From: Spirometra erinaceieuropaei
Lineage: Eukaryota > Platyhelminthes > Cestoda > Diphyllobothriidea > Diphyllobothriidae
Reading direction: 5' to 3'
Assembly (NCBI GenBank): GCA_902702965.1
Contig: CACRXP010000383.1
Coordinates: forward strand, 258,101-322,100
DNA length: 64,000 nucleotides
Shown piece after piece: positions 771 through 37,744 of this stretch (its first letter is position 1; each line of letters begins with the position of its first letter). Both the position numbers and the translations under genes were made by a program. Below the pieces are notes generated by a model that made no database searches, had not been told where the DNA came from, and saw only the letters and a program-made list of their open reading frames with translations.

Positions 771-913
771 AGGAAGGGGTACCGACAAAGCCAAGGGAGA
801 AGCTCCATTACCAAATAATCGGGGTTAAATCTCAGGTCTTTCAGACTTCGGGGTGGTTATGGCTGGATGACCAGTCTTCCCGGTTTTTGTCGGCACACCT
901 TCCTGCTTTAAGA
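771..913. repeat. Inverted repeat around a decayed SINE piece
   Basis: The left flank at 771-803 and the right flank at about 876-913 are inverted copies of one another and both carry the ACCGACAAAG/CTTTGTCGG tail motif of the tRNA-derived SINE family B. The inside holds a degenerate match to the SINE stretch that reads ACTTCGGGG followed by TGGCTGG. It is best read as two decayed SINE tails in opposite orientation. Confidence 0.45.
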
Positions 914-8105: not shown

Positions 8106-8640
8106 AACAAAGGTGGTCCTACGCATAATTCTAGGAACGCAAGTCCATTACCAGGTGCAACGAATTTCCCCTTCCGTACTCCGTGCTGAGACTTTGCCTA
8201 GGCGGAGTAATCAGACATGCGGGAAGCGCACAGGTGAACACAGTTCCCAAGGCCAGGTCGGTGGATCAGATGGTCGAGCAATCATCACACCGACATCCAA
8301 CGCACGTGATGAGATTGCAAAAATGAACGACACGAATGTCAGCCATCAAACAGTCAACACACCAAGTGCAACAATCCCGGATGAAGAGGGGAGCCGTGAA
8401 TGTTCATAAGTATGCGGTAGCATGGCGACTGCATCCTATAACCACTGCAGCCCCTTGTGCATGAACCACCCGTATCTGCTTTTGTCTCTGATGATGGGTT
8501 CGAGCAGGAGTCCGAAACGTCAGGCCAATAAAGCTGCTGTCCCAGCGATCGTGTCTCCCTCTTCAAGACTGCTTCTTGGGACGCGTCTCTTCGCTTCTAT
8601 TGGCAACCATTACATAAAACTAAACCGTTGGTAGAGGGGG
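8106..8640 (+). mobile_element. Repeat family G, copy 1 (Penelope-like or retrozyme-like, with hammerhead)
   Basis: About 500 bp shared with 31500-31930 and, over the second half, with 30655-30905. Shared blocks include GCGGGAAGCGCA, CGGTGGATCAG, GATCCCGGATGAAG, GCGGTAGCATGGCGAC and CTGCAGCCCCTTGTGCATGA. A hammerhead fold sits at 8484-8525, followed directly by CCAATAAAGC. Hammerheads of this compact kind are known from the terminal repeats of Penelope-like retroelements and from retrozymes; no reverse transcriptase or GIY-YIG frame is visible, so the element class is an inference. Confidence 0.6.
8484..8525 (+). ncRNA. Hammerhead ribozyme, compact type I (family G)
   Basis: Seen: GUCT (8484-8487), CUGAUGA (8488-8494), one extra U (8495), stem II GGGUUC/GAGUCC (8496-8501 with 8508-8513, six pairs including G-U and U-G), GAA, self-complementary stem III ACGU (8517-8520), then C8521 completing a GUC cleavage triplet and AGGC (8522-8525) pairing with GUCT. 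All invariant core bases are present. The four-base stem III cannot close on itself and would need a dimer, as known for minimal hammerheads. The extra U after the core A is unusual. Confidence 0.7.
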
Positions 8641-8689
8641 ACGCTCACCGGTCGTTTTACTGCCTTTACTATTGCATATTCCGGATCGC

Positions 8690-8870
8690 AACCGACAGGA
8701 CAGCGAGCCTGTGGCTCAGTGGTTAGAGGCGTTGGACTTCCAACTAACAGGTCGCAGGATTGAGCCCCAGGTGTTCCACACTTCGGGGTTAAATATGACT
8801 GGCTGACGACGATGGCTAATAAGCCAGAAATGCCCATTTCGGTCTCCCTTGTCTGACTAAACCGTTGCCC
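8690..8870 (+). repeat. tRNA-derived SINE family B, copy 1
   Basis: The head shows an A-box-like GTGGCTCAGTGGTTAGAGGC and a B-box-like GGTCGCAGGATTGAGCC, as in tRNA-derived RNA polymerase III promoters. It continues with GTGTTCCACACTTCGGGG, the hammerhead segment and GGTCTCCCTTGTCT. The tail beyond the last block is replaced by a TAACCCT-like array starting at 8865. Confidence 0.8.
8797..8844 (+). ncRNA. Hammerhead ribozyme in SINE B, copy 1 (stem II altered)
   Basis: GACUGG (8797-8802), core CUGACGA (8803-8809), GAA at 8827-8829, stem III AUGCCCAU (8830-8837), U8838 as the cleavage base, then UCGGUC (8839-8844). Stem I still has six pairs, including A-U where other copies have G-C or G-U. 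Three extra bases (GAU) lie before stem II and stem III has a mismatch, so this copy is probably weak or inactive. Confidence 0.55.
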
Positions 8871-8952
8871 TACCGTTGACTCTGACTCTAAACTAAACCT
8901 TAACTCTGCAGTTAACACTAGCCTCTACCTTAACTCTACGCTTGAGTCTGAC
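8865..8952. repeat. Degenerate TAACYCT array (family J)
   Basis: Irregular repeats of about 6 to 12 bp built on TTAACTCTA/CTAAACC, resembling degenerate telomere-type sequence. The block CAGTTAACACTAGC is shared exactly with the array at 9800-9960, so the two are copies of one repeat rather than independent simple sequence. Confidence 0.6.
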
Positions 8953-8953
8953 T

Positions 8954-9790
8954 TACAGTGGATGTGCTAACTCGTGGAATTTCAACCAACATGCTGAAAT
9001 GCGTTTTCGATTCGAAGGGAAAACATAAGTAGGATTATAATATTAACCATGTGCAGCATAATCCAGTACTAAATCAGTTACTATAAGATACTGGCTTTTG
9101 AGTAAATCTCTTTTCGGCCGCCTGAAAAAACGAAGCCCCGTAAAAATGACTACTTAAGTAGTAGGGATTTTTCTCATGGATTTGGAATGATCTGATAGCA
9201 AACATGCATAGCAGTATTCATTCTTTTACTCAGTTAGTAGTAAAATACATGTTATTTAAATCATATATTTAAAGGAAGAGTTTATTTTAGCTTTAGGAAA
9301 CTTTTCCAGTTCCTGAAGAATTATGTGCCCGACTTGCATTCAAGGTTTTCAAACTACAAGCTGTATATTTTCCGTGTGTGGAAAGTCAAACACTTCTCTA
9401 CGTTATTAAAAGGAAACCATATGGGGTTTATGAAATTAAGCAATGGATATGAGCAATATTGTAGACTTCACAAGCAAAATTATCAAATGCAGATGCACGT
9501 TGTTTTACGAAAAGGCACCTCGCGGTCTTAAAAATGTCATAATTATAAACTTTTTAAACCGAATTATTCCCTTCTTTTGAGTATAGAATTTGAACAGGGC
9601 TTTGACTTTTACCAATTGAGCAAAAGAATGAATATTTCTATACATTTTCTTATGCTATATATTTGGATTTATAAGGACATCAAAGATAAACGAGAAAATA
9701 CTAATTAGGCAGCCATTTTTTGCAGAGTGTAGTTTTTACAGGTGGCCGGAAAGGAGTCCGTTTAAAAGTCGGTAACTGTATTGCAGTGTC
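8954..9790. mobile_element. Foldback element family C, copy 4 (subfamily with GTGCTAACTC ends)
   Basis: Starts ACAGTGGATGTGCTAACTC and carries CTACTTAAGTAG at 9150-9161. The right arm at about 9540-9790 has lost its palindrome (CTAATTAGGCAG) and its last bases. The terminal sequence groups it with the copies at 47049, 50531 and 51862 rather than with copies 1 and 14. Confidence 0.7.
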
Positions 9791-9799
9791 CCAACCTAA

Positions 9800-9960
9800 T
9801 ATAAAACTTAACCGTTACCCTATTCTTGACCATAACCCTCCCCTGAACCTTAGTTCTACAGTTAACACTAGCCCCCCACCTTAACCCTAAACTCGATCCT
9901 GACTTACCTTAACGTTAACTGTAAATGTGATCACTTTCTTAAACCTAACCCTCAAATCCA
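9800..9960. repeat. Degenerate TAACCCT array (family J), copy 2
   Basis: About 160 bp of imperfect TTAACCCTA/CCTAACCCT-like units. It shares CAGTTAACACTAGC with 8865-8952 and the order of its blocks with 55470-55720. The following stretch GGCGGTTCGCGTTCTCATGT also recurs, diverged, after the 55.5-kb array. Confidence 0.6.
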
Positions 9961-10199
9961 CCCGTATTGTAGGCGGTTCGCGTTCTCATGTCCTGTTTAG
10001 ACGTCCACACAAGTCAGTTCCACCATTTTTTGTTCGCTGGACGTTTCGGTTTCGCATCTTCCAATCGCTGCGAACAATGGACGGGATCCGCATTCATTGT
10101 CCACCTCGGAAACGTTGTTCTGAACAATTTTCCTCCCAGCGCTAGTAAAAAAAGGGCAGTGATGTTTTTTTTAGGAAAGTCGGTTTTAGATTCGTTCGA

Positions 10200-10460
10200 A
10201 AATAACGGAACCAGTGAATTCCGTAAGATCAGTCGGTGAGCGCCCCCTACTATTGCATATTTCTGATCGAAACCGACAGGGCAACGGACTCGTGGTCCAG
10301 TTTTTAGAGGTGCGGACTTCTAGCAAACAGGTCGCGAGTTCGAGGCTCGGGTGTTCCACACTTCGGGCTTGGGTATGGCTGGCTGACGACGGCTAATAAG
10401 CCAGAAATGGCCATTCCAGCCTCCCTTGTCTTTGTCGGTAATAACATGCTGCCAAAATAA
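10200..10460 (+). repeat. tRNA-derived SINE family B, copy 2
   Basis: Begins with the GAATTCCGT / CGGTGAGCGCCCCCTA lead block, then AACCGACAGGGCAACGG, an A-box-like stretch near GTGGTCCAGTTTTTAGAGGT, a B-box-like GGTCGCGAGTTCGAGGCTC, the hammerhead, and the CTTTGTCGGTAATAACATGC tail. This is one of the better preserved copies. Confidence 0.8.
10377..10421 (+). ncRNA. Hammerhead ribozyme in SINE B, copy 2 (best preserved)
   Basis: Stem I GGCUGG (10377-10382) with CCAGCC (10416-10421), six Watson-Crick pairs. Core CUGACGA 10383-10389, stem II GGCU/AGCC (10391-10394 with 10399-10402, loop AAUA), GAA 10404-10406, self-complementary stem III AUGGCCAU (10407-10414), U10415 as cleavage base in an AUU triplet. 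The pair next to the core in stem II is C and A instead of the usual G-C, which may lower activity. An alternative hairpin CUGGCU/AGCCAG overlaps this fold. Confidence 0.65.
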
Positions 10461-10639
10461 TTTCTGTATAAATCTTCTAAGCGCCGGAACTAGACGTTTA
10501 CCTTGTACGTTGCTTATGGTCTGAGAAGTACACTAATAGACTCAACTTATGGAGAACCCGATACTTCGACTGTCACAAGCGGTGACGCCTGCCCCGGGCC
10601 ACACGGAGTGGGCAGTCCATCGGTGACCTAAGCATGTGT

Positions 10640-10810
10640 TATTTAATAGTGGGGTGGACTTGCGTAGCACCTACGGCGCCTCTCTCTGTCTAGCCAAGCC
10701 CTGACGACAAGGACATGTCAAGACAGCCGGAGGTGGACGCGGGCGCTATGGCGAGACAAAGTTATACAGTCCGTCGACACGTTCCACACACACACAGGTC
10801 CAAGTTCCCA
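10640..10810 (-). repeat. Dispersed repeat family A, diverged copy
   Basis: Shows TGGACTTGCGTAGCACCTAC, CTCTCTCTGTC, TGTCAAGACAGCCGGAGGTG and CACACACACAGGTCC, in the order of the family. It is more diverged than the 2.1-kb copy, and the CACACACA stretch is a local simple repeat. Confidence 0.55.
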
Positions 10811-10913
10811 CAAAATGTCCCAGGCTGCTGTAAGGTCGGGCTGTATTTCACAAGCAGCCTCTAGAGGCGTATTGCTGCCGCGCGTGTCCTGTAAGTCAGG
10901 TCATTTGCGGGGG

Positions 10914-11418
10914 TAACAATCGGGAGATGGCACCCAAAAAATCCGCCTAACCAAAGCATCCTGTCTTACGGGACAGGTGGTAATAGGGGTTTTATGGGTG
11001 GTGGCTGGTCGGGATGTACGATACTAGCCGACGGAAAGGCTTATTTGAACAGGTGAATGATCGAAGTTGGCCCGCTCTCCGCTCCGTTATAACAAAATGG
11101 GTCACCAAAGGCAGTATAGTAATAACGGACGAGTGGAAGACGAATAATCGTCTTCCTTCAGAAAGTTATCTGCAGTTCTCTGTTAACCACTCAAAGAACT
11201 TCAAGGACCCCACCACCGGACTGCACATTAATGCCATCGAAGCATACTGGAGTACACTAAAAAGGAAACTCTACTAGGGAGGCCCTGTATGTGATCGAGC
11301 TGTGTGGGCCCACATAGACGAAGTACAGTATCGTCTTTGGTGTGGCCTCAATACCATGTCTTTGACAGATGCCTGTGAACTGTTTCTGTCCCATGTTGTG
11401 CAGAGTTATCCTATTTAA
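10914..11418 (+). pseudogene. Merlin (IS1016-type) DDE transposase, broken
   Basis: The open part starts at 11014 and reads LFEQVNDRSWPALRSVITKW, then ITDEWK, VNHSKNF and GLHINAIEAYWSTLK, the order typical of ISXO2/IS1595-type DDE domains used by eukaryotic Merlin transposons. The D of TDEW and the E of AIEAYW are candidate catalytic residues. A TAG at 11275-11277 interrupts it; the same frame then continues (HIDEVQYRLWCGLN, LSHVVQSYP) to TAA at 11416-11418. Upstream, in-frame TAA and TAG codons break the N-terminal part, where the first catalytic D should lie. Merlin is known in schistosomes. Clearly inactive. Confidence 0.8.
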
Positions 11419-12224
11419 AAGTGATTTTTTTTGTAATAAACTGCCATAATGCGAATGTATGCCCTATATTCAGGTGTACGTGTATAACGATGGGGAAGGT
11501 TGGGTAACAGCGACCATCGTCCATGAAACCTCCTGCGATGTTCGTTCGGCCAGCTAATTTAAGGCCGTCGGGGAAAGTCCAAGTAGTGCGCGAAAGTCGG
11601 CCTGCAACCGCTGATGGAGACTGAAAGCGTTTGAGTCCACTGTTAAGGATACTATTTCTAGGTAACGGATTTTTTTGGTGCCATCTACCGATTGTTACCT
11701 TTGCGGTAATTCTAGGCTTTCTTCAATCTCGCGGCAAAACTGTCATACATCTAGTTGGATTTTGCGTTTCAGCCTCGGCTGCTTTCCCCACTTACGATTT
11801 CGGCATCCCCCTTCGGCCTACTTTGCTTTCAGTGTCCATATTGCGCTTACGCTTGGGACCAGGACACCATACCCGATCTTTGTTCAGTTTTATTATGGCG
11901 AGAAATGCACCCATGTGCTGTGAGGACGATTTACCCCGGTGTCCGTCTTACTCCTCACCTTCTCACTCGCCATTTGGCCCTTCGAGCCAGTCTGTCCTCC
12001 GGAGATCGGATTGGGTGCAGAGGTTGACGCGGGATGAAAGCATGCACGGCCGCAGTTAAGACCACGCACGGATCCTGCGCAGCCCAAGAAACTCCTGCCG
12101 CAAGACTAGTCTGACCCCAATTTGGTCCGGCGTATCTGCAGCGCAGAACGTTGTCAGGGGTCACAACTTTTTCCCAGTCAGGCAGGTACAGACAGTCACG
12201 GCGACCAGAGGAAACACTGATCGA
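11419..12224. other. No gene recognised; 142-codon frame
   Basis: A + strand frame (11631-12059) overlaps two other long frames on the same strand, which suggests compositional openness rather than selection. It resembles no protein I know and lacks a family-specific motif. Confidence 0.35.
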
Positions 12225-12650
12225 ATAAACCCTTCAATGTTCTGCTGGGGTTTGCTCTCGAATAGGAGACTAGATAGTGAGTAGCCAAAAGCCAACTGTC
12301 TCATGCAATAATTAGCTGAGACATCCGCACCACAGACCTCCGCTTCGTTATCTTACTCATTCAGATCAGAGAGTCCGTCGGGAGATCCCGGGGGTTTCAC
12401 GGACGCGCACACGATCGCCTGAGGTAGGGAGAATTTAAACGGTTGCCTTAGGCCAACTAACAGAGCTACGACCAATTAAAATTGAATTTTCGTATATGTA
12501 CAACGCCACTGCTCTAGGTGTATGATGCTGTATGCTTCGAAACCTAACTTCTGAGTCTCTTGCTGGCTTTGCTAGTAGATAGGACATCGGTTCTCTTAAC
12601 CTCAGTTGCCCTGGGAAAGTCTCACCACAGTGTGACTGTGGTAGGTGTCT
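12225..12650 (+). repeat. Repeat family H, copy 1
   Basis: About 430 bp shared with 16375-16830: matching blocks are ATAATTAGCTGAGAC, CTCCGCTTCGTTATCTTACT, GATCCCGGGGG, AACAGAGCTACG, TTCGAAACCTAAC and the CACCACA block near the end. Orientation is arbitrary. No conserved reading frame is seen. Confidence 0.6.
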
Positions 12651-13705
12651 GGTCGTCCAACCCCTCACCCCCATTCAGCTGCGACACACCGAAGGTGGAC
12701 CGGCTGGGTAAAATGGCTGTTTTCCGTGAATTCGGAAGTAGATATCTCCATCTCCCCCTTCTGCCACAGCAGTTGAATCTTCCGGTACTGTGCCAAATGA
12801 CAGCCGGGGGGGGGGGGTGCGGTGGTATGCATGACGGGTATCTAGGGGCTGGACATGGGCGGTTTTAGGGTACAATGCAGACAACACCGAGGAAGGCACT
12901 AATGGGTGTGAATTATGCGGAGGCCAATATTTCACCAAAGTACAGACTCATTTAACCAGCCTGCATCCACACAGCATGCGTAGATGTGCGGACATGCGTA
13001 GCGAACATTACGATAGGGAGCAACGAAATATTACGACCAAACGGTCGTCACCGCGCGCAAGCAGGCGTCTGTTGAGAGTTACACGCACACACACACACGC
13101 GCACAGAAGGCGCCTCGTTTCCTACTCCCCAGTCGAAGGCCTGCACGCGAGAGCGTCTACGCAAGCTGGCTAGCTAGCTAGCTCGCTCACTCAACTCCTC
13201 CTCCTCCATGCGCAAATCTGATTGGTTGGCTGGTATCCAAATAGTAATGGCGAGTCTGAGTACAGATTGCATCAACGTCCGACGCGGGAGGGCGGAGAGA
13301 TCGATGTGCGGGAGGATTTTGCAATGATGTTGAAGACGATGACGGCGAGAGCGGTGACCGCAGAAGGAGGGTGCCAAGGCGCAATGCGCGCATTTTTCTC
13401 CTGCGCTGTCTCCCTTCGCTGGCTCCTGCGTCCACAATTATCCGCGCACAGGCCAGATGGGGTGACCTCAAGGTGGGCGCAGCAGACCGACCCAGGAGGG
13501 AGCACATTTACTGCCGTGTTCCGCTGTGACTGGCAGCAAGGCCGGGGTGCTCGTATCCGGGACAACGAGAGCTTGTCAGACGGCAATTAGGTATTTGAAA
13601 TTGCAGGAAGGGTGATTTAAGTAGTTTGGGACGTGTGTCTGCTAATCAGAGTCCATAATTCATCTCAAAAGAGGGAGCACGGCGTCTTTGGAATGAGCGT
13701 TAGGT
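12651..13705. other. No gene; simple repeats
   Basis: Contains a G run at about 12806-12816, a CACACACACA/CGCACA stretch at 13081-13101 and a GCTAGCTAGCTAGCTAG run at about 13165-13184. Overlapping frames of about 100 codons on both strands at 13187-13590 are GC-rich and look non-coding. Confidence 0.4.
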
Positions 13706-13836
13706 CGGATCTTATTTCGTAGTCGTACCTGTAGTAGACAAGCCCTAGCCTAACCCCAAACAATATCCTTAACCCCCGGCCCTTCTAGCCGCTAACTTTA
13801 GCCCATAACAGGCACGGCTACGAAATAAGATCTTGC
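13706..13836. mobile_element. Family F element, short copy: inverted ends around a CCTAAC-like core
   Basis: The ends CGGATCTTATTTCGTAG and CTACGAAATAAGATCTTG form inverted repeats of about 28 bp, continuing through GTACCTGT and ACAGGCACGG. Between them lies a degenerate CCCTAACCCC/CCTTAACCCC stretch. The same end-core-end structure recurs at 28624-28890 with a longer core. Confidence 0.7.
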
Positions 13837-14006
13837 CGAATGTTTCGTTTGGTTGGGAGTTGGTTAAATAATCTCAACGAAACCCTCAAGGGCCGGACAC
13901 AGGAAGATGGACTTGTAGCGTTCACGAATGAAGGCGAAACTTCGACTTCCAGATGTATGCATAAGTGGAGAAGAAGAGTCGATCACCGGAACACTTTGTT
14001 TATTGT

Positions 14007-14046
14007 CCTGAGCTTTCAGACTCGTACAGGAGTCCATCGTCAGAGG
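14007..14046 (-). ncRNA. Hammerhead ribozyme, minus strand, core intact
   Basis: On the minus strand: stem I CCU/AGG (14046-14044 with 14009-14007), core CUGACGA (14043-14037), one extra U (14036), stem II GGACUC/GAGUCU (14035-14030 with 14023-14018, six pairs with one G-U), GAA (14017-14015), stem III AGCU (self-complementary, 14014-14011), C (14010) giving a CUC triplet. Same build as the family G hammerhead, including the extra U, although stem II, loop and stem III sequences differ. Stem I is only three pairs. Confidence 0.65.
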
Positions 14047-14393
14047 TAGTGACAGCAACAGAACAAGCGACAGTTATAAGGCATGTAGGCCAATCATCGA
14101 CCGACGGCGCAAGACCGGAGGTGACTGCGCAAAGCTCTATACCCCGGCGCCCGATCGATAAGGAAATTGACCGAGTACTCATCCGAGGCCCAGGCTTCAA
14201 TCAATTCTCGGCCTGTTTTGTTCCCGGCGTGGGCGACTATTCTGGTGGCTGCGAACTTAAACTAGTGACCCACGCCTCGTGACTCGCCCACGTCGAAAAC
14301 AAAAGAGACCGAGTGTGGATTGAAGACTGGGCCTCGGATGAGAACTCGGTCAATTGACTAATCAATCTGTCGCTTGTTCTGTTGCTGTCACTA

Positions 14394-14433
14394 CCTCTGA
14401 CGATGGAAACCTGTACGAGTCTGAAAGCTCAGG
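14394..14433 (+). ncRNA. Hammerhead ribozyme, right arm, stem II damaged
   Basis: Mirror copy of the minus-strand hammerhead: CCU, CUGACGA (14397-14403), U, GGAAAC, CUGUAC, GAGUCU, GAA, AGCUC and AGG. The change from GGACUC to GGAAAC breaks two of six stem II pairs, so this copy is probably inactive. Confidence 0.55.
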
Positions 14434-14544
14434 ACAATAAACTAAGTGTTCCGATGCTCGTTTCTTCTTCTTATTCACTTGTAGCGTTTTAGTGATGTGA
14501 GAGCGTACTCAGGGAGCTAAAATCACCAGAACAAATTCCGAGTT

Positions 14545-15165
14545 TTAGGAAAAGACAGAAGTCTCCAGGATGAGGGGTTTATTGCAATCGGAAACCGACT
14601 TGTCCTCCCAGGTGGCAGTGGACACTGCCGACGCCAGGACTAGTGTTGACCGCGTCCATTCATGCCTGAGAGTCTGTGGGACAGTGGTGGCTAACTCAAG
14701 TGCTGTCCGGCTGGTATGTGATGCATTTGCCGAGGTTGACCTTCAAACGGCGCATTGGCAGCTGCGACCCGTTGGTCGCGCATGTGGCCGTGGCCGCAGA
14801 TCAACCTGCCCGGAACCACCCGCTGCGGAGGTGAATGACCTTGACGCTGTGGAGCCCCGGACAAGGACTCCAGACGGGCGTCGCAACAGTAACGATGTAT
14901 GCCAATGTCCGAAAACTGGGACGAGTCCATCTCAGGAACCAGATGTTTATGGTTTAGGCAGGCTTTTACCACCACAGTAGGTATTGGTAAAGAGTTTCAC
15001 GGTAAATAAATGACAAGTATGGGCACCGTAGCGGCGGCAGTTGGTAGGAGGAGGGTGTAAATGACCTTGACGCTGAGGGGACCTGAATAAGGACGCCAGA
15101 CATGGCCATGACGCTGTACGCAACAGACGCGCCAAAGACAACAGGTGGCCTTGCGCCAAATTTCA
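14545..15165 (-). repeat. Repeat family D, copy 2 (rearranged)
   Basis: Matches the other D copies through CAGGATGAGGGGTTTATTG, GTCCATTCATGCCTGAGAGT, GGACAGTGGTGG and TGAATGACCTTGACG. A second partial match at 15055-15130 repeats the AATGACCTTGACGCTG block and its follow-up, so the 3' part is duplicated around about 100 bp of other sequence. No conserved protein frame. Confidence 0.6.
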
Positions 15166-15272
15166 GACCGTACAAATTCCCACCGCTAACATTAATCTTA
15201 ACTCTCTTCGCTAATCACAACCCTAATCGAAACCGCCCTGGAATTTGGTAAAACCACGAGGGGTCCACCTTC

Positions 15273-16220
15273 NNNNNNNNNNNNNNNNNNNNNNNNNNNN
15301 NNNNNNNNNNNNNNNNNNNNNNNNNNNNNNNNNNNNNNNNNNNNNNNNNNNNNNNNNNNNNNNNNNNNNNNNNNNNNNNNNNNNNNNNNNNNNNNNNNNN
15401 NNNNNNNNNNNNNNNNNNNNNNNNNNNNNNNNNNNNNNNNNNNNNNNNNNNNNNNNNNNNNNNNNNNNNNNNNNNNNNNNNNNNNNNNNNNNNNNNNNNN
15501 NNNNNNNNNNNNNNNNNNNNNNNNNNNNNNNNNNNNNNNNNNNNNNNNNNNNNNNNNNNNNNNNNNNNNNNNNNNNNNNNNNNNNNNNNNNNNNNNNNNN
15601 NNNNNNNNNNNNNNNNNNNNNNNNNNNNNNNNNNNNNNNNNNNNNNNNNNNNNNNNNNNNNNNNNNNNNNNNNNNNNNNNNNNNNNNNNNNNNNNNNNNN
15701 NNNNNNNNNNNNNNNNNNNNNNNNNNNNNNNNNNNNNNNNNNNNNNNNNNNNNNNNNNNNNNNNNNNNNNNNNNNNNNNNNNNNNNNNNNNNNNNNNNNN
15801 NNNNNNNNNNNNNNNNNNNNNNNNNNNNNNNNNNNNNNNNNNNNNNNNNNNNNNNNNNNNNNNNNNNNNNNNNNNNNNNNNNNNNNNNNNNNNNNNNNNN
15901 NNNNNNNNNNNNNNNNNNNNNNNNNNNNNNNNNNNNNNNNNNNNNNNNNNNNNNNNNNNNNNNNNNNNNNNNNNNNNNNNNNNNNNNNNNNNNNNNNNNN
16001 NNNNNNNNNNNNNNNNNNNNNNNNNNNNNNNNNNNNNNNNNNNNNNNNNNNNNNNNNNNNNNNNNNNNNNNNNNNNNNNNNNNNNNNNNNNNNNNNNNNN
16101 NNNNNNNNNNNNNNNNNNNNNNNNNNNNNNNNNNNNNNNNNNNNNNNNNNNNNNNNNNNNNNNNNNNNNNNNNNNNNNNNNNNNNNNNNNNNNNNNNNNN
16201 NNNNNNNNNNNNNNNNNNNN
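15273..16220. other. Assembly gap (948 N)
   Basis: A run of N with no sequence information. The 339-codon frame across it is an artefact. The left border is unassigned sequence with a short TTAACTCT/CCCTAATC stretch at 15190-15240; the right border is the end of a family A repeat, so the gap probably hides more repeat DNA. Confidence 0.95.
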
Positions 16221-16262
16221 TCAGACGGTGGATATCGTCGGCAACGATGGTCGAACTGTCGT
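16221..16262 (+). repeat. Family A end block next to the gap
   Basis: The bases ATATCGTCGGCAACGATGG followed by TCGAACTGTCGT match the terminal block of family A, best seen at 22855-22895. The rest of this copy is lost in the gap. Confidence 0.6.
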
Positions 16263-16374
16263 AGGTTGCGAATACTTAGGGTTAGTAGTTAGAAGCTCGA
16301 TGGCTCTCCGTCGGCATTAAATGACCGCTCTGGCATTGGTACATAGCACTACACAGTCGATCCTTGCTTATCTG

Positions 16375-16830
16375 CCTGGAATAGTATTGTCGCACCACAG
16401 TTTGAGCACAAGCGGACCCTGATAAATATTCAATTCTGTTTGATTGAGAAGCGAACCTAGCTGTTTAGTGCGATAATCAGCTAAAACGTCCCGGCCACTG
16501 ATCTCCGCTTCGTAATCTTACTCATTCCGATCAGAGACCCTGTCCGACAAACCCGGGGTTTTATGGACGCGTACAAGAACAACTATGGCAAGAACATCGT
16601 GTGGCAAGGAGGATTCAGACAGTTGTCTTCGACTCATTGACTAACGGAGCTACGGCCAACTGGAATTGCATGTCCGTATACGCATAGCGCCATTGCACTG
16701 GGTTCATTGTTCTGTGTTTTCGAAACCTAACGTCAGGGCCTGTCGCTAGTTTTGGGTTTAGACAGGACACTGATTCTTTTAATTCCAGCTGCCCTCGGAC
16801 AGGCCCACCACACAGCGCGACGACGATAGC
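16375..16830 (+). repeat. Repeat family H, copy 2
   Basis: Matches 12225-12650 through ATAATCAGCTAAAACGTCC, ATCTCCGCTTCGTAATCTTA, the ACGGAGCTACGGCCAA block and TTTTCGAAACCTAACG. Divergence by eye is about a quarter of positions, so the two insertions are old. Confidence 0.6.
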
Positions 16831-17589
16831 TCGCCGAGGAACTAGTCGTGACTAACCTAAAGTGAACCGGTTTGTCAAGTGGATGTTGCTGTTGGACTCG
16901 CAAGAAGACATCTCGACGCAGCATTCCGCCACAGCATTCTAGGATCCGAACCCTCCTTTATTGCGAGGACCATTATTTGTGCGGTAATACCATCGTATTT
17001 AGTGACCCCGATTTCTACAGTACCACCTTATGGTCGACGACCGCTTCCTCATTAGTCGTATTTCCGATGAGGGCCGTTCCACTGTATGCCGCCTATGGAG
17101 GCGCTGAGTAGCTCGCAGACAGGTTTTTGCCTTAACTGACATACAGAAACAGATGCTTACTTGGCTTGAGTTATTTTCAACTTTGTTTAATCTCGGCTAG
17201 ACTGGGATATAACTCCCAGACCGTACGTCAACTCCCTACACCACTCCAACGTCACAGTTGAATGCTTTGCGTCATGTCTGTGTTAAAGGCACCGGTAGAT
17301 CCGACGCATACCCCTATTCTCCTATATTAACATGTGCATTTCCTACCAAGTCCAGAATTTTGTAAAGTATTACACCTTGATGATAAGGCCATCCGTCACT
17401 GTGATCAAATTATGGACCATGCCAATAGAAGTAAAATCTCATTAGGCCACCGTATATGGTTGCCATGTTCGCCTTTTCTGCGAATTTGTGACTTGGTCCG
17501 TCAGTAAACAAGTATTTAAGGTGTTGAGACCATGCGGCGAGAGTAAGTGCTGTGAGCGCTACAACCACCAGATCGAATCCCAAGTCGTA
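16831..17589. other. No gene recognised
   Basis: Short frames only. No repeat family of the window is obvious here. Confidence 0.35.
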
Positions 17590-18020
17590 AGGAGAAGACA
17601 GAAGGCACCAGAATGAGGAGTTTATTGTGCACAAAACCCGGAATTGTCCTCTCAGACGGCAGTGGCCACTGGCGAAGCCAGGGCTGGTGTTGAATGCGTC
17701 CAGTCATGCCTGAGAGTTACTGAGACAGTGGTGGCAGACTCGTGGGCCAAGTTCAAGTGGTCTCCAATCGGTGTGTGTTGTATTTGCCGAGGGATGGAGT
17801 CCCAGTGGCTTGTTTGGCTGGTTGCAAGTGATGGGGTGCGTTCAAGTGGCCGCATGAACAGCCGCGGCTGTGCGGCCGCAGGTGTGCCCGAGTTGTCGGT
17901 CGTGTGACTTCAGGTCAGCGCGTCTGGAAGGGCTCACTGCAAAAGGGTGAATGACCTTGAGGCAGCGAGGTCTTAAACAATGACGCCAGACCGGTCATGA
18001 TTGCTGGCCGCCACAAAGGT
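17590..18020 (-). repeat. Repeat family D, copy 3
   Basis: Close to copy 1: CAGAATGAGGAGTTTATTG, CAGTGGCCACTGGCGAAGCC, the CAGTCATGCCTGAGAGT block, CCAGTGGCTTGTTTGG, GGTGAATGACCTTGAGGCA. A GC-rich insertion (GCCGCGGCTGTGCGGCCGC) makes it longer in the middle. The minus orientation is inferred from the CAATAAACTCC end. Confidence 0.7.
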
Positions 18021-18144
18021 GAGCATACTTTCAAATGTATATTTTTGGGATTGTTTACCAAACGTCGGCTGTAGCATCGTAGTCTAGGGAAATGAATTTG
18101 GCAAACATGCTGCTAGAAGAAACATTTACAACGGTAGAGAAGTG

Positions 18145-18320
18145 CGCAACCAATAGGGCAATGAGCCCGTGGCTCAACAGTTGGGACGTTGGACTTCCAA
18201 CCAACAGGTCACGAGATGGAACCTCGGGGGTGACTGGGTATGGCTGGCTGATGACGGATAACAAGCCAGAAATGGCCACTCCGGTCTCCCTTGTCTTTGT
18301 CGGCAACGCTATGCTGCCAG
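18145..18320 (+). repeat. tRNA-derived SINE family B, copy 3
   Basis: GAGCCCGTGGCTCAACAGTT at the A-box position, a degraded B-box (GGTCACGAGATGGAACCTC), a shortened middle, the hammerhead segment and GTCTCCCTTGTCTTTGTCGG. Preceded by unrelated sequence, so 5' truncated or diverged. Confidence 0.75.
18242..18286 (+). ncRNA. Hammerhead ribozyme in SINE B, copy 3 (N7 = U)
   Basis: Stem I GGCUGG/CCGGUC (18242-18247 with 18281-18286, six pairs with two G-U). Core CUGAUGA (18248-18254) with U at the tolerant position 7. GAA at 18269-18271. Stem II is reduced (GGA/GCC) and stem III is AUGGCCAC, so folding is weaker than in copy 2. Confidence 0.55.
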
Positions 18321-19035
18321 TACCATTTACATGGTTTGATAACCAAATGCAAACTTCAACACGACAGAAGTGATTAGCTATCACGCAAGCATCGCTTTCA
18401 CGGAGGGTGGTCGTGGGTAGGGGCTATATTTTAATTCTGTCTTTCGTCTCTTCCCTTCTGCCCCCCTCGCCTGTTGAGATATCTTCCGCAAATTAGGAAT
18501 TAGATCCAGACTGTTAACGTGGATTTAATTTTTGTGTGAGTGACGTAGCCCTAAGGGTACGCAGGTTCATGCGTGGGTGGGTCGGATCATTGCGCGAGGC
18601 CGCGCCGTCTGCCTGGTCTGCTGCTAACTGAAAACAGTAGCTGATCATCAGCGGCATGAACAGCTGTCGCGCGCGCGCAAAGGTTTGCGCAATCGTCTGG
18701 CAAATCGCTCCTTCGTGAGCGAGCGAGCGGCCCATTAGTCAGCTGTCCCGGTTCAGATAACAGGCATTGTCTGCATGGGTTGTGATGCTGCCCCGTCTAA
18801 AGGCGCTGGAGGAGGAAGTGGCATTTTTTGCAGAAAATAAAAAGTGGAGGCTTTTTGGAGTACTTTTTTTGGATGCATTTCAGCAGCAACCGGTTCAGCC
18901 AGAAGTGGGGATGATCTATATCTAGTGCTTGCCCTTTGAACGAAGCGTCCGAGATATCCCCATCACTTTACGGCTATAGTTAGGAACTTCTCAATGTATG
19001 TGAGCGCAGTGTTCTGTTTTATGGCACCTTTTTGC
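18321..19035. other. No gene recognised
   Basis: The stretch at 18640-18740 is GCGC-rich with GAGCGAGCGAGCG. The minus-strand 73-codon frame at 18514-18735 is unrecognised. I looked here for an upstream dystrobrevin exon and did not find one. Confidence 0.35.
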
Positions 19036-19395
19036 TTACAAGCAGAGAAGGAGTAAAAGTTTGACTGGGTTAGCAGAAGGCGTAATTTTCTACCGAATGA
19101 GCGAAAGGATGAATACTTTTATGCAAGCTTTCCAGGAAATGTAATTGTTCATTTAGGGCTACTGAAAACCAATGAGAAAAATTCATGCAACTTGAGTAGT
19201 CATTTTTTACAGAGTGTGAGTTTTACCTGCAGCCGAAAGAAAGTTCTTTCGAAAGCTCGCGGTCTGAGATAACTGATTTATGATAGCAATATGCTGCAGG
19301 CTGATTAATTTAAGAACCTTATTTAATTTATATTTTCGAAAAGGAAACGCATTTCGCAATTCCGGTTGACATTTCGTGAGTTATCAGGGGAATAA
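19036..19395. mobile_element. Foldback element family C, right arm only (copy 5)
   Basis: Matches right arms elsewhere: TTTTCTACCGAATGAGC, GGAAATGTAATTGTTCATTTA, AACTTGAGTAGTCATTTTTTAC and ACATTTCGTGAGTTATC. No left arm lies upstream. It ends only about 80 bp before the first visible dystrobrevin exon, so it borders the splice acceptor region. Confidence 0.65.
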
Positions 19396-19476
19396 TAAGG
19401 ATGGCCAGCTTTGAAAAAGTCACCTTCTCGTTGTAGAGTGGCTAAACTTCTGTTTTTTTCATCTGATCTCCCTCAG

Positions 19477-19818
19477 TGGGTTCGCTGGATATCTGGCGCG
19501 TTGTGGAGACCTTCCGTGATGTGGGCCTTCACTTGGCCGATCCCACAGTCACTCTCAATCGTCAGGGCACGGAACAGTTGCTGTGGCGCATATACGCCAG
19601 TCTGCCTCCCCCGGCAGACGCTCCAGTAGTCTGTGACGCCAGCGGCCAGAGGCAGATACTTCCCCTGCAATCGCCAATGCTCAGTCAGGCCGCGGAGATC
19701 CTTCTCGGTTGGCTCACCTATATCCTCGATCCAACCAACTGTGGCAGGCTGGCTGTCAGTGGTCTAAAGGTTGCCCTCTCCACACTGGCCGGCGGAAAGC
19801 CGGCAGACAAGTTCAGAT
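19477..19818 (+). CDS. DTN: Dystrobrevin exon: first EF-hand-like region
   Basis: The exon begins after CTCCCTCAG, completes a codon with TG, then reads GSLDIWRVVETFRDVGL... and ends LKVALSTLAGGKPADKFR plus one base before GTGAGT. This follows the dystrobrevin pattern of DIW-VIEAFR-NGL, then a helix pair and V-MALATLCGGK-DK-RY. Length 342 bases, intron phase 1 at the end. In the family this region forms the EF-hand-like fold next to the ZZ domain and takes part in the dystrophin complex at the membrane; the canonical calcium ligands are usually not kept. The preceding exon, which should encode the YRTACKLR-type helix, was not found. The frame does not start here: the GTG before it is the acceptor AG junction, not an initiator. 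Confidence 0.9.
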
Positions 19819-19961
19819 GTGAGTTAATTATAACCTACTCAAAATTTGCCGCATATCTACGCAGCCGAACGTATGAGCATGCTTGCCAGTATGTAACTAT
19901 TTTTATGCATTTATCATACAACTCATAGTGCATAGGATTTATGTTACGCAGTATAAATAGG

Positions 19962-20001
<40 letters not shown>

Positions 20002-20224
20002 GTAGCTCAGAGGGGGTATGCATTCCGAGTTGATATAATGAAAAAATAGAAGAACCTCTTCTATTTTTTCATATATATATATATGGCTGACATTTATATA
20101 TATGGCTGATATATATATATATATATCGGCAGTATGGTATTACCGCATATTTACATAACCGCAAGTTTGAGCACGCTTGCCAGTATGCAACTATTTTTAT
20201 GCATTTACCATACATCTCATAATG
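19819..20224. repeat. Intron start with AT dinucleotide runs
   Basis: An AT run at about 19965-19996 and shorter AT runs at 20072-20084, 20095-20102 and 20109-20126. Flanking copies of GCTTGCCAGTATG plus AACTATTTTTATGCATTTA (about 19880-19912 and 20175-20210) show a local direct duplication of about 80 bp around the AT runs. Confidence 0.6.
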
Positions 20225-20377
20225 CATGGGATTTATGAGCGCACACCACCATTGTATATTCGCGATCGAAAACCGACAGGGCAACGGGCTCGTGGCCCGG
20301 TGAGTAGAGGCGTTGACTTCTAAACCAACAGGTCGCGAGTTCGAGGCTCGGGTGTTCCACACTTCGGGCTTGGGTAT

Positions 20378-20422
20378 GACTGGCTGAAGACGGCCAATAA
20401 GCCAGAAATGGCCATTCCAGTC
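20378..20422 (+). ncRNA. Hammerhead ribozyme in SINE B, copy 4 (N7 = A)
   Basis: Stem I GACUGG/CCAGUC (20378-20383 with 20417-20422), six Watson-Crick pairs; the A-U pair replaces the G-C of copy 2, a two-sided change. Core CUGAAGA (20384-20390), stem II GGC/GCC, GAA 20405-20407, stem III AUGGCCAU (20408-20415), U20416 as cleavage base. Confidence 0.65.
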
Positions 20423-20685
20423 GCCCTTGTCTTTGTCGGTAATGTCATTCTGCCTATATATGATGCGCTGCTGTGCTGCTGCTGGTTGGGCTCGAGAGAG
20501 AGCCCTTAAGGCACAACGGAACGAGTGAGTTCCGTTTGAACGATCGGTGAGCGCCCCCTACCATTGTATATTCCCGAAAACCGACAGGGCAACGGGCTCG
20601 TGGCCCGGTGGGTAGAGGCGTGGACTTCTAAACTAACAGGTCGCGAGTTCGAGCCTCGGGTGTTCCACACTTCGGGCTCGGGTAT

Positions 20686-20730
20686 GGCTGGCTGACGACG
20701 GCTAATAAGCCAGAAATGGCGATTCCGGTC
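20686..20730 (+). ncRNA. Hammerhead ribozyme in SINE B, copy 5
   Basis: Stem I GGCUGG/CCGGUC (20686-20691 with 20725-20730), core CUGACGA (20692-20698), stem II GGCU/AGCC, GAA 20713-20715, stem III AUGGCGAU with one mismatch, U20724 as cleavage base. Together with copy 4 it would release an RNA of 308 nt (20417-20724). Confidence 0.65.
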
Positions 20731-20801
20731 TCCCTTGTCTTTGTCGGTAATACCATTCGGCAGTATACCATTACCGACAAAGACAAGGGAGACTGGTTGC
20801 T

Positions 20802-21567
20802 CCAAGTAACAGCTTTGAGAACGTGATTTTCTACAACCCCAAATGCTATCAAAAGCATCAAATGCTATTCATGCACAATAATTCTGAGAGAGATCAACCG
20901 AGAAAAGGATACCTTGTTTTTAGCGAATCTTCTGGGCCTAAGACTAAGTCCGCTGACCAGAAATAATTTTAGTCACTGCGATTCCTTGGCACATTCTATC
21001 ACTGTAGCAATTAGGGTATTTAGAGGGGGCAGATCACGTGAAAATAGGCAACCGACTCGGGAACGCCCAGTCTAACGGTCACTTGCGCTACAACAGACTC
21101 GCTGTGCAAATCGGTAAGAAGGCAGTATCGCTTATTCGCGGGTTGAAAGGCGTGTTCCCAGCGCGGTGTTAAGGAGGCATTCGGTGTCTTAACGCGACCT
21201 CGGCAGACTCACCCCTGACCCTGGGAGTTTCCCATCTTATTTACGTTTTCCCGGCAAGGACAAGGGCGTTGGGAAAACCACATTTTCCTATCCACCGGCT
21301 ACATGCCCCGCGGCTATTATTCAACTTTGTTTTTCTACTGTCTGTCACCAGAACTGTCTTTCTTGCAATGGTGGTAAGTGTTATCTCATGCAAATTATCG
21401 GGGAGAGTAGGTTCTACGTCCATGGGTGCTACAAAATCACACTAGCGCTCCCCCCTTACCTGAAAGCCCGATAAAAACCGCAGTACTGGGTTTCAGTGCC
21501 AGCATCCGGAAGTATAAATAAGCACATAGACGGTTCGTAATTTGCCAACGGGCGCTGATTAGCAAAT
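20802..21567. other. Intron, nothing recognised
   Basis: No exon or repeat family is evident. A 60-codon minus-strand frame at 21241-21423 is unrecognised. Confidence 0.35.
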
Positions 21568-30507: not shown

Positions 30508-30650
30508 ACGGCAGAGGGTGGCGCTCGACGATCGCGCTAGGGAACTCGCCCGTCCCGTTGTGCCTTAGGGCTCTCTTTCCAGCCCCGCCTGCAGCTGCAC
30601 AAAGCTGCATATTATAGGCAGAATTGCATTACCAACAAAGACAACAACAA
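30508..30650 (-). repeat. SINE B tail and lead block, inverted
   Basis: The minus strand reads CTTTGTTGGTAATGCAATTC, then ATTCTGCCTATAATATGC, GAGAGCCCTAAGGCACAACG and GAGCGCCAC, the same series as at 20425-20560. This confirms that tail and lead block are contiguous in the repeat unit. The tRNA-like head and hammerhead are absent. Confidence 0.7.
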
Positions 30651-30654
30651 CAAC

Positions 30655-30905
30655 GCGGATTTCGGCCATCACAGAGTCATTACACCAAGTGCAGCGATCC
30701 CTGATGAAGAGAGGAAACCGTGAATTTTCATATGTATGCGGTAGCATGGCGACAGCATTCTATAAGTACTGCAGCCCCTTGAACAGGAACCACTCGCATC
30801 TGATTTTGTCCCTGATGGTGTGTTTGAGCAGGAAGGCGAAGTCAGGCGAATAAAGCTCTAGCCCCAGCCATCGTACGTCTGTCTTCACGTCTGTTTCATG
30901 TTTTA
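30655..30905 (+). repeat. Repeat family G, copy 2 (degenerate hammerhead)
   Basis: Matches the 3' half of family G: GATCCCTGATGAAGAGAGG, GCGGTAGCATGGCGACAGC, CTGCAGCCCCTTGAACAGGA, GAATAAAGCTC. The hammerhead region at 30806-30850 reads CTGATGG and CGAAGTC in place of CTGATGA and CGAAACGTC, so the ribozyme core is broken. Confidence 0.65.
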
Positions 30906-31543: not shown

Positions 31544-31930
31544 TGAAACTTCGCCTTGTTCGAGTAATTAGCCACGCGGGAAGCGCAGAGGTGAACACTT
31601 CCCAACGCCATGGTCGGTGGATCAGCCGGTCGAGCCATCATAACACCAATATCTTACGCACGTGATGAAATTCCGGCAATTAACGACGCGACTTTCGGCC
31701 ATCAAACAATTAGCACACCAAGTGCGACGATCCCGGATGAAGGGGGAGCCGTGAATGTTCATTGATATGCGGCAGCATGGCGACTGCATCCTATAAATAC
31801 TGCAGCCCCTTGTGCATGAAACACCCGTATCTGCTTTTTTCTCTCATGATGGGTTCGAGCAGGAATCCGAAACGTCAGGCTAATAAAGCTCTTTTCCCAG
31901 CAATCGTGTCTCTTTCTTAAAAATTGTCGA
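31500..31930 (+). mobile_element. Repeat family G, copy 3
   Basis: Parallel to 8106-8640 from CTTCCCCTTCAATACTCGG onward: CACGCGGGAAGCGCAGAGGT, GGTCGGTGGATCAG, GATCCCGGATGAAG, GCGGCAGCATGGCGACTGC, CAGCAATCGTGTCTC. The left part forms the right arm of the hairpin at 31328-31543. Confidence 0.65.
31839..31880 (+). ncRNA. Hammerhead remnant in family G, copy 3
   Basis: The core is CUCAUGA (31843-31849) instead of CUGAUGA, which removes the invariant G5 and should abolish cleavage. The extra U, stem II GGGUUC/GAAUCC (with U-A where copy 1 has U-G), GAA and ACGUC are kept. Confidence 0.5.
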
Positions 31931-34900: not shown

Positions 34901-35499
34901 GTAGTTTATCTGCTGGCTTACATCTCCAAAAGTCCCTAACTAACTCCAAACTAGAAGAGGACAATGTTACACGCGGATAAGCTATTTCTTGGAACTTGGC
35001 ATCAAGCACGCAGTCGGTTTTGGAGGAATCTCAAATTTGTGTGACAAGCTGCGCCGTCGCCGACTGCATCTTCGTCCCGAAAATCACCTTCATAAGTGGT
35101 GCTAAGGGTTTGGGGAGAGCAAATCGACCCCTTTAATGACACTTATTCATATTCTATCACACGAAACCCTAAGACACTGCGCATGGAACATCTGACAGTA
35201 AAGCGCGGGAGTACCGAACTCGAATTTTCCAGGACAGCTTCAGGTTTCGAGTAGGAGAGTTAGGAGTAGGACGGTTAGTTTGAGGGTTAACGTTCGGGCC
35301 AGGAAATAGATGCTCCCTAAGAATTTAATGCAGGGCCACCCGTAGTACGGGGAGAGTCCACATTTCCGTCTCGGATCCATCTGACTTCTCATCCGAAAAA
35401 GTGTAATGACAGAACTGTAGCTTAAATATAGAGGGAACGTCTTAACAATTGTTAGCGCCACAACCACATTCTCAGGTCACCGTATATGCGTCGCCGTGC
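31931..35499. other. Intron, no gene recognised
   Basis: Contains a short CAGCAGTAGCAGCAGCAACA stretch near 32166-32187 and several frames of 60 to 130 codons (33656-33974 minus, 34110-34499 minus, 32841-33095 plus) that match nothing I know and overlap frames on the other strand. Near 32700-32830 two imperfect inverted copies of AAATGTCGTAAATGTTT-like sequence occur. Confidence 0.3.
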
Positions 35500-35590
35500 G
35501 GCTGCTGGTGGGGCTCGAGGGAAAGCCCTAAGGCACAATGGGACGAGTGAGTTCCGTAGCACGATCGGTGCGCGTCCCTTAACCACATAT
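35500..35590 (+). repeat. SINE B lead block only
   Basis: GGCTGCTGGTGGGGCTCGAG, AGCCCTAAGGCACAATGGGA, GAGTGAGTTCCGT and CGATCGGTGCGCGTCCC match the lead block between SINE B copies 4 and 5. The tRNA-like part is missing. Confidence 0.65.
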
Positions 35591-36065: not shown

Positions 36066-37744
36066 GCCACATGCGAGAATCGAACCACGATTTTGCCTTT
36101 GAGAAGGCGAGGGTAATTGGCCGAGCCAATGAAAAGATTGCCAGACTGGTGCTTGAAAGTTGGTCCTAGACTGACTCACTCAACCGAGCTATAGATCTTC
36201 ATCCCGCCTACCAGGCGCTGCGTTCAAGGCTCGGATCAGTCCGGACAGGACCAGTAAGGCAAGCGAGTACGCGTGACCGAGAGTCAACGCTCACGGAAAA
36301 GAGCAGAGTTGGGGGCCAGAGGTCATGTGACCAACGCCGAGCGCTGCCTCACCGATGCGCCCGCGGAGCTGAATGCTGCTTACATGAACAGCAACGACCG
36401 ATCAGTTCACCGGCTGACGTGGGAGAGGCCAACCGGCACGTGGATTTGACTACAATTACGCCGACCCCAAAGGGAATAAAGGTCACGCAGGCCTGTCAGC
36501 GGTCAGCCCCGGGGAGGTCTAAGCCAGTCAGCGGCAAACAGGCAGGCCAAAGTTCGTGCGTCGAGCATGGCTCTAATACGAGGCAAGCGCAAGACTGTAC
36601 AACTCAAGACCGGCAGGAGCAACAAGTACGCTACTTTGATGATGGAAATTAGGAAGTTTCCGAAACGTCAGTTCGAATACAATATGGTCCACGGCTTCGC
36701 CTTCTCTTCTTCTTTGTCTTCTTCGGGAGATGATGAACGCGATACAATGTCTGGACCCCGAATCTTTACGCATATCGATATATATATATGTACGCAAGGA
36801 GAAAAAATGCGGAAGCCCAGAGCGCACCCTGCCTCCCAACGTATTGGTTATCACTAAAGCGCTATCCGTTTGTTCCAACTTTACACAAGCGTGCATGTCT
36901 GGTACCCTTGTCCAAATTTTTTCCAAAAATAACACCCTGACAGCACAGACGAGTTAAGCGTACCTACACAAGCCCACGCCATTTGAACGAGCTAGCTTCC
37001 CGGCTATTTCCGATAGCACTACGCGCCTTGTGCTTTAGTTCAAGTAATTAATTTTAGTCCGGTCCCACTCCTTCTCTGCTCCTGATCTCGACGACTTTGC
37101 CGCCGGCAGTTTTGCCATTTTTAGGTTTAGTCCAAAACTGCGAAATAGACGTTTATTGCCAAGCAGCGTGCCAGTTAAGAGCTGTTACTTCTTTCTCAGA
37201 AAAAAAGCGTCCCTGCAGGCAACACCCTAAACATTAATCTGGCTTCCTTTCCTGCTTCTGACTGTCCCAGTGTGTGTGTGCGTGTCTGCATACGTTCCGT
37301 TGTTGGCATGGCACAGAAGTTGTGCGCGACTTGAAAACACATGGCGGGCCCCTAAAATTAGCATTTTCCCCCCAGAGGTCGGTAAACTGATGTCGCCTTC
37401 TAAACAACCGAGGTTTGAACTGGCAGTGAAATTAGCAGACCAACGGTCTGGCAGAGCACATCAGAGATAATTTGCTTCCATACAGAGCAAGCAAACCTTA
37501 TCTGGTTTACTTTTTGAGACTAATTAAAATACCAGAATCCGGTAAAAGCCGGATTTTCAGTTGACGTGTCTCCTTTAACATTATCTGATATTTTGAAAAA
37601 TGAATTTCGTTGAAAGGAAAGGCCAAGGCGCGTTCGTAGGATAGGTAATCATGCGGTATAAGTTTAAGATGTCTTCGTCGCGTCCGAATGACGGCATTTA
37701 AATGGGCGTTTTTCCGGCCGCCTGAAAGACCGCACTCACTAAAA
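36066..37744. other. Intron, nothing recognised
   Basis: A + strand frame from 36567 starts MALIRGKRKTVQLKTGR and looks somewhat protein-like, but it ends in an AT-rich run at 36778-36790 and has no known match. Confidence 0.3.

Follow-up and report, generated by a model that had tools for sequence, protein, structure and literature searches.

Does a short repeat in the genome of the tapeworm Spirometra erinaceieuropaei contain a hammerhead ribozyme, and by which machinery is it moved? These questions are raised by a stretch of 64,000 nucleotides (contig CACRXP010000383.1, positions 258,101 to 322,100; hereafter the window), for which a first-pass annotation had described five copies of a tRNA-derived short interspersed nuclear element (SINE) with a built-in hammerhead and compensatory changes in stem I. 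The follow-up analysis upholds a repeat in high copy number that combines a tRNA-like head with a hammerhead-like segment, together with the parallel that had been drawn to the schistosome element Smalpha, and retracts the compensatory changes. The explanation favored here, with a little more than even confidence, is a non-autonomous, tRNA-derived retroelement that resembles Smalpha and the hammerhead-bearing retrozymes, lives as a parasite of the Penelope machinery and carries a minimal hammerhead-like segment as a putative ribozyme.

The genome to which the window belongs (758.7 Mb in 1,932 contigs) was searched for copies of the repeat, and 1.2–3.2 kb around the scored matches were read; L labels denote genome loci outside the window that hold copies, and unit positions refer to the numbering within the repeat unit. 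This unit measures 312 bp and is composed of a linker (1–110), a tRNA-like head (approximately 125–225), the hammerhead-like segment (231–285) and a tail (286–312). Copies stand singly, are lined up in tandem arrays or occur as inverted insertions in head-to-head orientation. Description as a simple single-unit SINE was rejected on account of the 312-bp tandem organization and of arrays such as L062. The tandem unit had been overlooked in the first-pass annotation, as had the frequent inverted insertions, the two fixed 3' ends and the covarying Penelope-type hammerheads of the window.

A first look at the genome returned 2,841 repeat candidates; with its tandem unit of 312 bp and copies in the thousands, the repeat falls in the range of Smalpha-like SINEs (units of approximately 300–350 bp). 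Forty of them were scored; these are the best matches to one window copy, so that young-copy counts are biased toward young, head-containing copies. Within 20 arbitrary 10-kb stretches (200 kb), nhmmer identified eight matches (E < 1e-5) distributed over six stretches, i.e., about one per 25 kb, and extrapolation from these gives, very roughly, 30,000 copies genome-wide. The SINE fraction reported for S. erinaceieuropaei comprises 35,223 elements, or 1.09% of the assembly (PMC8166898), and the 312-bp repeat may account for much of it, provided that the repeats are the same, as we infer. A search with one 28-base pattern yielded no exact match in viral or prokaryote contigs.

The array in L062 (1–1982) contains 4.5 units with an exact 312-bp period and 99% matches. 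Three of its units are identical (312/312), a fourth agrees at 310/312 positions, and the end of the array is the usual 3' end with a TA run. L063 holds part of an older, diverged array with a mean identity of 91% between units; over positions 1–3001 it appears as a satellite-like array that includes a 129-bp short-period stretch. The tRNA-like head of the unit is probably an internal promoter. An old copy in L002 reached 23.4 bits (E 1.5) with the Rfam tRNA model, below the cut-off of 29, and ARAGORN called no tRNA in any window copy of the repeat. In the second unit of the window dimer, stretches at approximately 20600–20618 and at 20645–20657 were named by eye and are taken here to be box A-like and box B-like elements.

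Core and stems of the hammerhead-like segment

All five annotated copies are present (Table 1), each with CUGANGA and GAA(A), with C, C, U, A and C, respectively, at the variable position N7 and, wobbles included, with six possible pairs in stem I. As they belong to one repeat family, they represent one observation rather than five. The layout said to be shared by all of them was borne out in part: the full core is found in three of the five, and a type I descriptor in relaxed form, with a mismatch at 10.1/11.1 tolerated, likewise accepts three (10383, 20384 and 20692). AUGGCCAU is exact only in window copies 10377 and 20378 (and in 29 of 52 distinct family copies); it is replaced by AUGCCCAU in copy 8797, by AUGGCGAU in copy 20686 and by AUGGCCAC in copy 18242, where the C occupies the required U16.1. 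Stem II is broken in copies 8797 (three extra bases, CGA) and 18242 (GGAUAACAAGCC). In young segments, the core (C3 U4 G5 A6 N7 G8 A9, G12 A13 A14, A15.1-U16.1, H17) is satisfied by the majority base at every site.

The motif is not a chance match, as the window, shuffled 16,248 times with dinucleotides preserved, gave 44 descriptor matches with a stem I of at least six pairs (0.0027 per window) and 113 with at least five (0.0070 per window). The relaxed descriptor found nothing in the 20 arbitrary 10-kb stretches, some of which contain old copies. It could still be argued that the segment is merely a stem-loop region of the SINE that never was a ribozyme, given that the descriptor had to be relaxed, that a rival hairpin is kept equally well and that covariation is lacking (see below). 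Against this stand the low expectation from shuffles and the placement of the motif in a tandem repeat headed by a tRNA-like stretch, which is the known setting of the schistosome hammerheads according to the available parts of two reports (PMC2770079, PMC8490949). Chance resemblance is therefore regarded as very improbable, and the segment likely descends from a real hammerhead.

Conservation was assessed in 82 young segments of at least 90% identity, with 32 segments of 70–90% identity kept apart. Unit positions 243–266, i.e., the 24 nt that span CUGANGA, stem II and GAA, rank first for low variability among 289 windows by the count of rare variants and 34th by the count of all variants, and N7, a subfamily site, belongs to 18 diagnostic sites. 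Stem III is an 8-nt palindrome, and two-strand co-folding, read by eye, gave a double hammerhead as the best fold for all four SINE sequences tried. Palindromic stem III sequences are described in hammerheads thought to act as dimers, as far as the available text extends (PMC3088659). In L035, a foldback (408–491) is centered on the stem III palindrome AATGGCCATT.

Insertion ends and a proposed link to Penelope

The insertions were resolved into 69 same-strand copying tracks, including a few of 25–65 nt, after removal of chains whose best piece was less than 88% identical and of an L058 track running off the fetched end. The 3' ends are fixed in 64 of these tracks, at unit 300–312 (39) or 98–126 (25), with five ending elsewhere, and both kinds of end precede a TATAT-like sequence in the unit (CTATATATC and GTATATTC). 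The 5' ends cluster at unit 90–95 in seven tracks, five of them exactly at 92, suggestive of an RNA whose 5' end is fixed, or of a strong stop, at this position. Flanking repeats of at least 8 nt were found for 19 of 36 insertions, compared to 5.5% of 2,000 mismatched flank pairs, and are free of TA runs in 14 of the 36; the target-site duplications measure 8–14 nt. Each of the ten head-to-head inverted insertions with clear non-TA duplications (Table 1) carries one outer end of each kind and, because of the clear duplications that flank it, is best seen as one event. A total of 20 inverted arrangements were classed by eye, leaving out L005, L058, the second part of L038 and old copies, and 16 of them, i.e., these ten and six without clear duplications, show one outer end of each kind.

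This anatomy can be set beside that of the anole Penelope protein, which is reported to cut AT-rich DNA, to extend both strands, to start at two internal RNA sites and, in vitro, to insert uncut RNA without need of the hammerhead (PMC11167929, available portion). Two fixed ends and inversions with duplications match this biochemistry, which makes the question of the helper testable from genome sequence. The insertion ends of the SINE display both hallmarks, namely fixed internal start sites in 64/69 tracks and extension of both strands in 10/10 clear inverted insertions. By this analogy, the SINE insertions look like products of a Penelope-type enzyme.

Two single cases fit template switching between the elements. 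In L027 (8012–8109), a diverged Penelope-type hammerhead region is fused to the SINE at a common GGCCAATAA, and in L062 the SINE array abuts Penelope coding sequence (tblastn 1e-67; 128–538 on the + strand, with an inverted piece at 3–137 and one N, at 540, where the two meet). Closeness alone proves little, because Penelope makes up approximately 10% of the published S. erinaceieuropaei genome; RTE and CR1 are listed there as equally abundant (PMC8166898, available portion), and the helper comparison made here covers Penelope only.

Penelope-type hammerheads also occur in the window itself, where six motifs of the form CTGATGATGG...GAAACGTCAGG (Table 1) resemble the hammerheads of Penelope-like elements, with approximately 300 bp between the nearest one and the first SINE motif downstream of it. 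A Penelope protein remnant is located at most approximately 350 bp upstream on the same strand in five of 17 aligned stretches (window 13995, 31833 and 36626; L013 2972; L024 2546), and none was found for the other 12 with the listed Penelope reverse transcriptase (RT) homologues as queries. The stems of the 17 stretches covary, with a score of 0.407 vs. 0.229 in shuffles (0/500 as high), 90.5% of cells paired, double changes in five of ten pairs, and 13 doubly changed cells vs. 3.5. A control slid by +1 gave 15 doubly changed cells, but 53% pairing and a score of 0.210. The covariation test that the SINE fails thus succeeds on the Penelope-type hammerheads of the same window. Of the 17 stretches, 11 have ACGU and two have AGCU as stem III, both of them palindromes. 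A model of these hammerheads gave six matches in the window, all among its building sequences, and nine at E < 0.01 in the 200 kb, seven of which are among its building sequences. In L010, a Penelope-type motif is situated inside an open frame.

An open reading frame (ORF) in L018 is called a Penelope RT because of its homologues. The 45 proteins listed come from Spirometra, Sparganum and Schistocephalus and, for the others, from nematodes and beetles; identity to the Spirometra proteins listed is 60–64%, and one homologue has RT and GIY-YIG domains. Pfam named neither this ORF nor two others, and no PDB chain matched the L018 ORF.

Starting from the observed fixed ends, inversions and duplications, the steps that would produce them can be pictured as follows. 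RNA polymerase III (Pol III) would make a one-unit or multi-unit RNA, in which the hammerhead-like segment would fold best between two units and might cut there, perhaps only with the help of protein. A Penelope-like RT would take this RNA and begin to copy it from either of two set internal positions, unit 312 or approximately unit 112, each before a TATAT-like stretch. Extension of both ends of the cut target would yield head-to-head inverted insertions with target-site duplications, and copying could pass one unit length either on multi-unit RNA or on a circle.

Tracks longer than one unit account for 25 of the 69. Such tracks would also be expected of an active retrozyme, whose hammerhead cuts multi-unit RNA to 312-nt monomers that are circularized by a host ligase and copied round and round. 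The identical units of L062, ending at the usual 3' end and TA run, would suit this model, and metazoan repeats of 150–450 bp with type I hammerheads are reported to be expressed as circles (PMC7229834, available portion). We consider it improbable nonetheless: only two of the 69 tracks exceed two units, identical units can also be produced by later unequal exchange, and laps within one insertion often differ, partly through later decay. With the window, L062 and L063 left out, mean lap identity is 0.957 on the same strand (17 pairs) and 0.965 between inverted laps (36), compared to 0.948 between loci (2,736). The presence of one outer end of each kind had been considered as proof of a monomeric circle; this argument was weakened, as on a concatemer, too, the nearest other site belongs to the other kind, and two like ends are seen in four inverted arrangements.

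A more specific and rather unlikely version of the Penelope-riding retroelement would combine these elements. A Pol III-driven, tRNA-derived retrozyme would form a double hammerhead through its stem III palindrome, Penelope would copy it from two built-in sites on both target strands, and L062-like arrays would be rolling copies of a 312-nt RNA circle. If true, the helper of hammerhead SINEs would thereby be identified. Even in its general form, riding on Penelope would help to show how ribozyme-bearing parasites spread.

Weighing the ribozyme and its helper

Several results weigh against a Penelope-riding retroelement with a putative ribozyme. Pair 10.1–11.1, the most conserved of stem II and normally G-C, is a C facing an A in 46 of the 52 distinct copies and is pairable in three (two U-A, one C-G), a weak point that the annotation had named; a U-U at this pair is found in nature with activity retained (PMC3088659, available portion). 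The compensatory changes claimed for stem I did not withstand an alignment of 52 distinct rows, obtained from 96 matches after dropping duplicates, rows with more than two gaps or with N, and rows extending past the fetched pieces. No double-sided change affects any of the six stem I pairs, and covariation scores 0.127, vs. 0.129 in shuffles. Over all stems, one of 16 pairs (in stem III) shows a double change, the score does not exceed shuffles, and RNAalifold predicted no pair. The first-pass annotation had itself proposed the test and named this outcome as refuting its claim; the test is weak, because power is low when the copies belong to one family and decay neutrally. The variable stem I pair has G238 or A238 opposite a near-constant U280 (46 G and 14 A vs. 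61 U and 2 C in young segments). The changes are one-sided, not compensatory, and serve as a warning that one-sided variation within one SINE family can pass for compensatory.

Folding adds to these points. The competing hairpin about which the annotation had been concerned keeps its pairs in 92.3% of cells, compared to 91.5% for the hammerhead pairs, and for a lone 55-nt RNA the best fold is more stable than the hammerhead by 5 to 7 kcal/mol. The energy gain of two-copy pairing is ordinary (29, 107, 44 and 124 of 200 shuffles are as low), and since it does not go beyond shuffles, dimer energy is weakened as evidence; the one Penelope-type hammerhead tried formed no double hammerhead on co-folding. 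Rfam hammerhead models gave no match to the SINE segment even at E 10 on 251 bases, and likewise miss the covarying Penelope-type hammerheads of the window. At E ≤ 10, the Penelope-type model gave no match to the SINE motif. Taken alone, the 11 core bases are weakly conserved (permutation values of 0.12 with rare variants and 0.04 with all variants), and in the 32 segments of 70–90% identity the window 243–266 ranks 122 of 289 by rare variants and 28 by all.

The same holds for parts of the insertion anatomy. Insertion ends fall within 3 nt of the predicted cut (unit 275/276) in two of 69 tracks, with approximately 1.5 expected, and are thus not enriched. Two like ends occur in four of the 20 inverted arrangements (first part of L035, first part of L038, L051 and L055), laps of one insertion can differ even at N7, as in L007, and comparison of the tails by eye showed no sequence common to the SINE and the Penelope tail.

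Several of these observations would be accounted for if the hammerhead were a relic, i.e., an ancestral ribozyme that no longer cuts since the base of stem II is broken (C·A), within an ordinary tRNA-derived SINE or a Penelope rider on uncut RNA. The C opposite A, insertions that read through the predicted cut site without ends there, a single-copy fold other than the hammerhead and the silence of Rfam all favor such a relic. It is less easily reconciled with a core window in which, counted by rare variants, the young unit varies least, and with a diagnostic N7, and read-through of the cut site is also displayed by the anole Penelope, whose hammerhead is active, cutting only with protein (PMC11167929, available portion). 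Overall, a relic is considered somewhat unlikely.

Known relatives and further features of the window

Ordinary tRNA-derived SINEs are moved by long interspersed nuclear elements and exhibit a tRNA-like head, a high copy number and target-site duplications. The tapeworm SINE differs from them by its tandem 312-bp units, its foldback insertions with two fixed ends and its hammerhead-like segment.

Smalpha of Schistosoma mansoni (and Sjalpha) is described as a high-copy, tRNA-derived SINE with a type I hammerhead, and the related W-element measures 335 bp; for S. mansoni, approximately 38,500 hammerhead candidates and tRNA-Gln-like heads are reported (PMC2770079, PMC8490949, available portions). 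Compared by description rather than by sequence, the tapeworm SINE and Smalpha are alike in high copy number, tRNA-like head, hammerhead-like segment and unit size, whereas a stem II starting with C·A and the 8-nt palindromic stem III set the former apart. The two fixed 3' ends and the inversions are features of the tapeworm SINE to which the comparison with Smalpha does not extend.

Metazoan non-LTR (long terminal repeat) retrozymes consist of tandem units of 150–450 bp with type I hammerheads and target-site duplications and have no coding capacity (PMC7229834, PMC7761336, available portions). Tandem short units and target-site duplications are shared with the tapeworm SINE, in which the hammerhead is putative; circular RNA has been shown for the retrozymes, whereas L062 provides a genomic hint only. 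In the portions of these reports available, no tRNA-like promoter, such as the tapeworm SINE may have in its tRNA-like head, is mentioned for retrozymes, their helper enzyme is called unknown, and a review notes no conserved motif that would betray the mobilizing autonomous element (PMC7761336). Penelope-like elements, as far as described in the available text (PMC11167929), share with the SINE (partly) tandem copies, a hammerhead, or in the SINE a hammerhead-like segment, located upstream of where copying starts, a pair of internal start sites, extension of both target strands and AT-rich targets. Unlike Penelope, the SINE has no RT, possesses a tRNA-like head and another hammerhead sequence, and has start sites approximately 112 nt apart instead of 30–40.

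In the way it works, the tapeworm SINE resembles Smalpha and the retrozymes, and it stands as a candidate for the hammerhead family, not as a proven case. The literature searched, mostly without subscription papers, contained no report of a hammerhead ribozyme for Spirometra. Papers on hammerheads in cestodes from the same search, judged by title and the start of the abstract, included none on such a SINE, and those on hammerhead SINEs in flatworms, judged by their listing, dealt with schistosomes or unrelated matters.

Table 1. Copies and fragments of the 312-bp repeat and Penelope-type hammerheads in the window (window positions), followed by the loci of clear inverted insertions elsewhere in the genome.
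Feature	Position or locus	Strand	Remarks
Old repeat copy, unit 110–291	8671..8854	+	blastn to unit, 79% identity; degenerate hammerhead-like segment 8797–8844, fails descriptor
Repeat copy, unit 62–312, 3' end at unit 312	10204..10452	+	Hammerhead-like segment 10377–10421; blastn, descriptor
Old repeat copy, unit 130–301	18148..18306	+	Hammerhead-like segment 18242–18286; stem II and U16.1 broken
Tandem dimer, first unit (95–312)	20236..20453	+	Hammerhead-like segment 20378–20422; N7 = A
Tandem dimer, second unit, complete (1–312)	20454..20761	+	Hammerhead-like segment 20686–20730; tRNA-like head ~20590–20660
Inverted tail fragment, unit 278–302; foldback remnant	20770..20794	-	Accounts for weak Rfam mir-576 match at 20715–20806
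Linker fragment, unit 19–105	30517..30601	-	Match to unit
Linker fragment, unit 10–109	35486..35583	+	Match to unit
Very degenerate head/tail relative without hammerhead core	820..892	+	nhmmer 8e-06
Penelope-type hammerhead and start of tail	8478..8536	+	Comparison motif
Penelope-type hammerhead	13995..14053	-	Downstream of Penelope protein remnant 14112–14309 (-)
Penelope-type hammerhead	14387..14445	+	Model match
Decayed Penelope-type hammerhead	30802..30858	+	Model match
Penelope-type hammerhead	31833..31891	+	Downstream of weakly matching Penelope protein remnant 31447–31572 (+)
Penelope-type hammerhead	36626..36684	+	Downstream of Penelope protein remnant 36065–36277 (+)
Inverted insertions, clear duplications	L003, L006, L007, L031, L032, L037, L039, L041, L047, L059		One end of each kind

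Window positions of approximately 15270–16220 read as N. A second, different tRNA-like repeat is located at 38501–38583 (-) of the window and at 1837–1919 (-) of L003; it is called tRNA-Ser by ARAGORN and reaches 37.7 bits with the Rfam tRNA model in L003.

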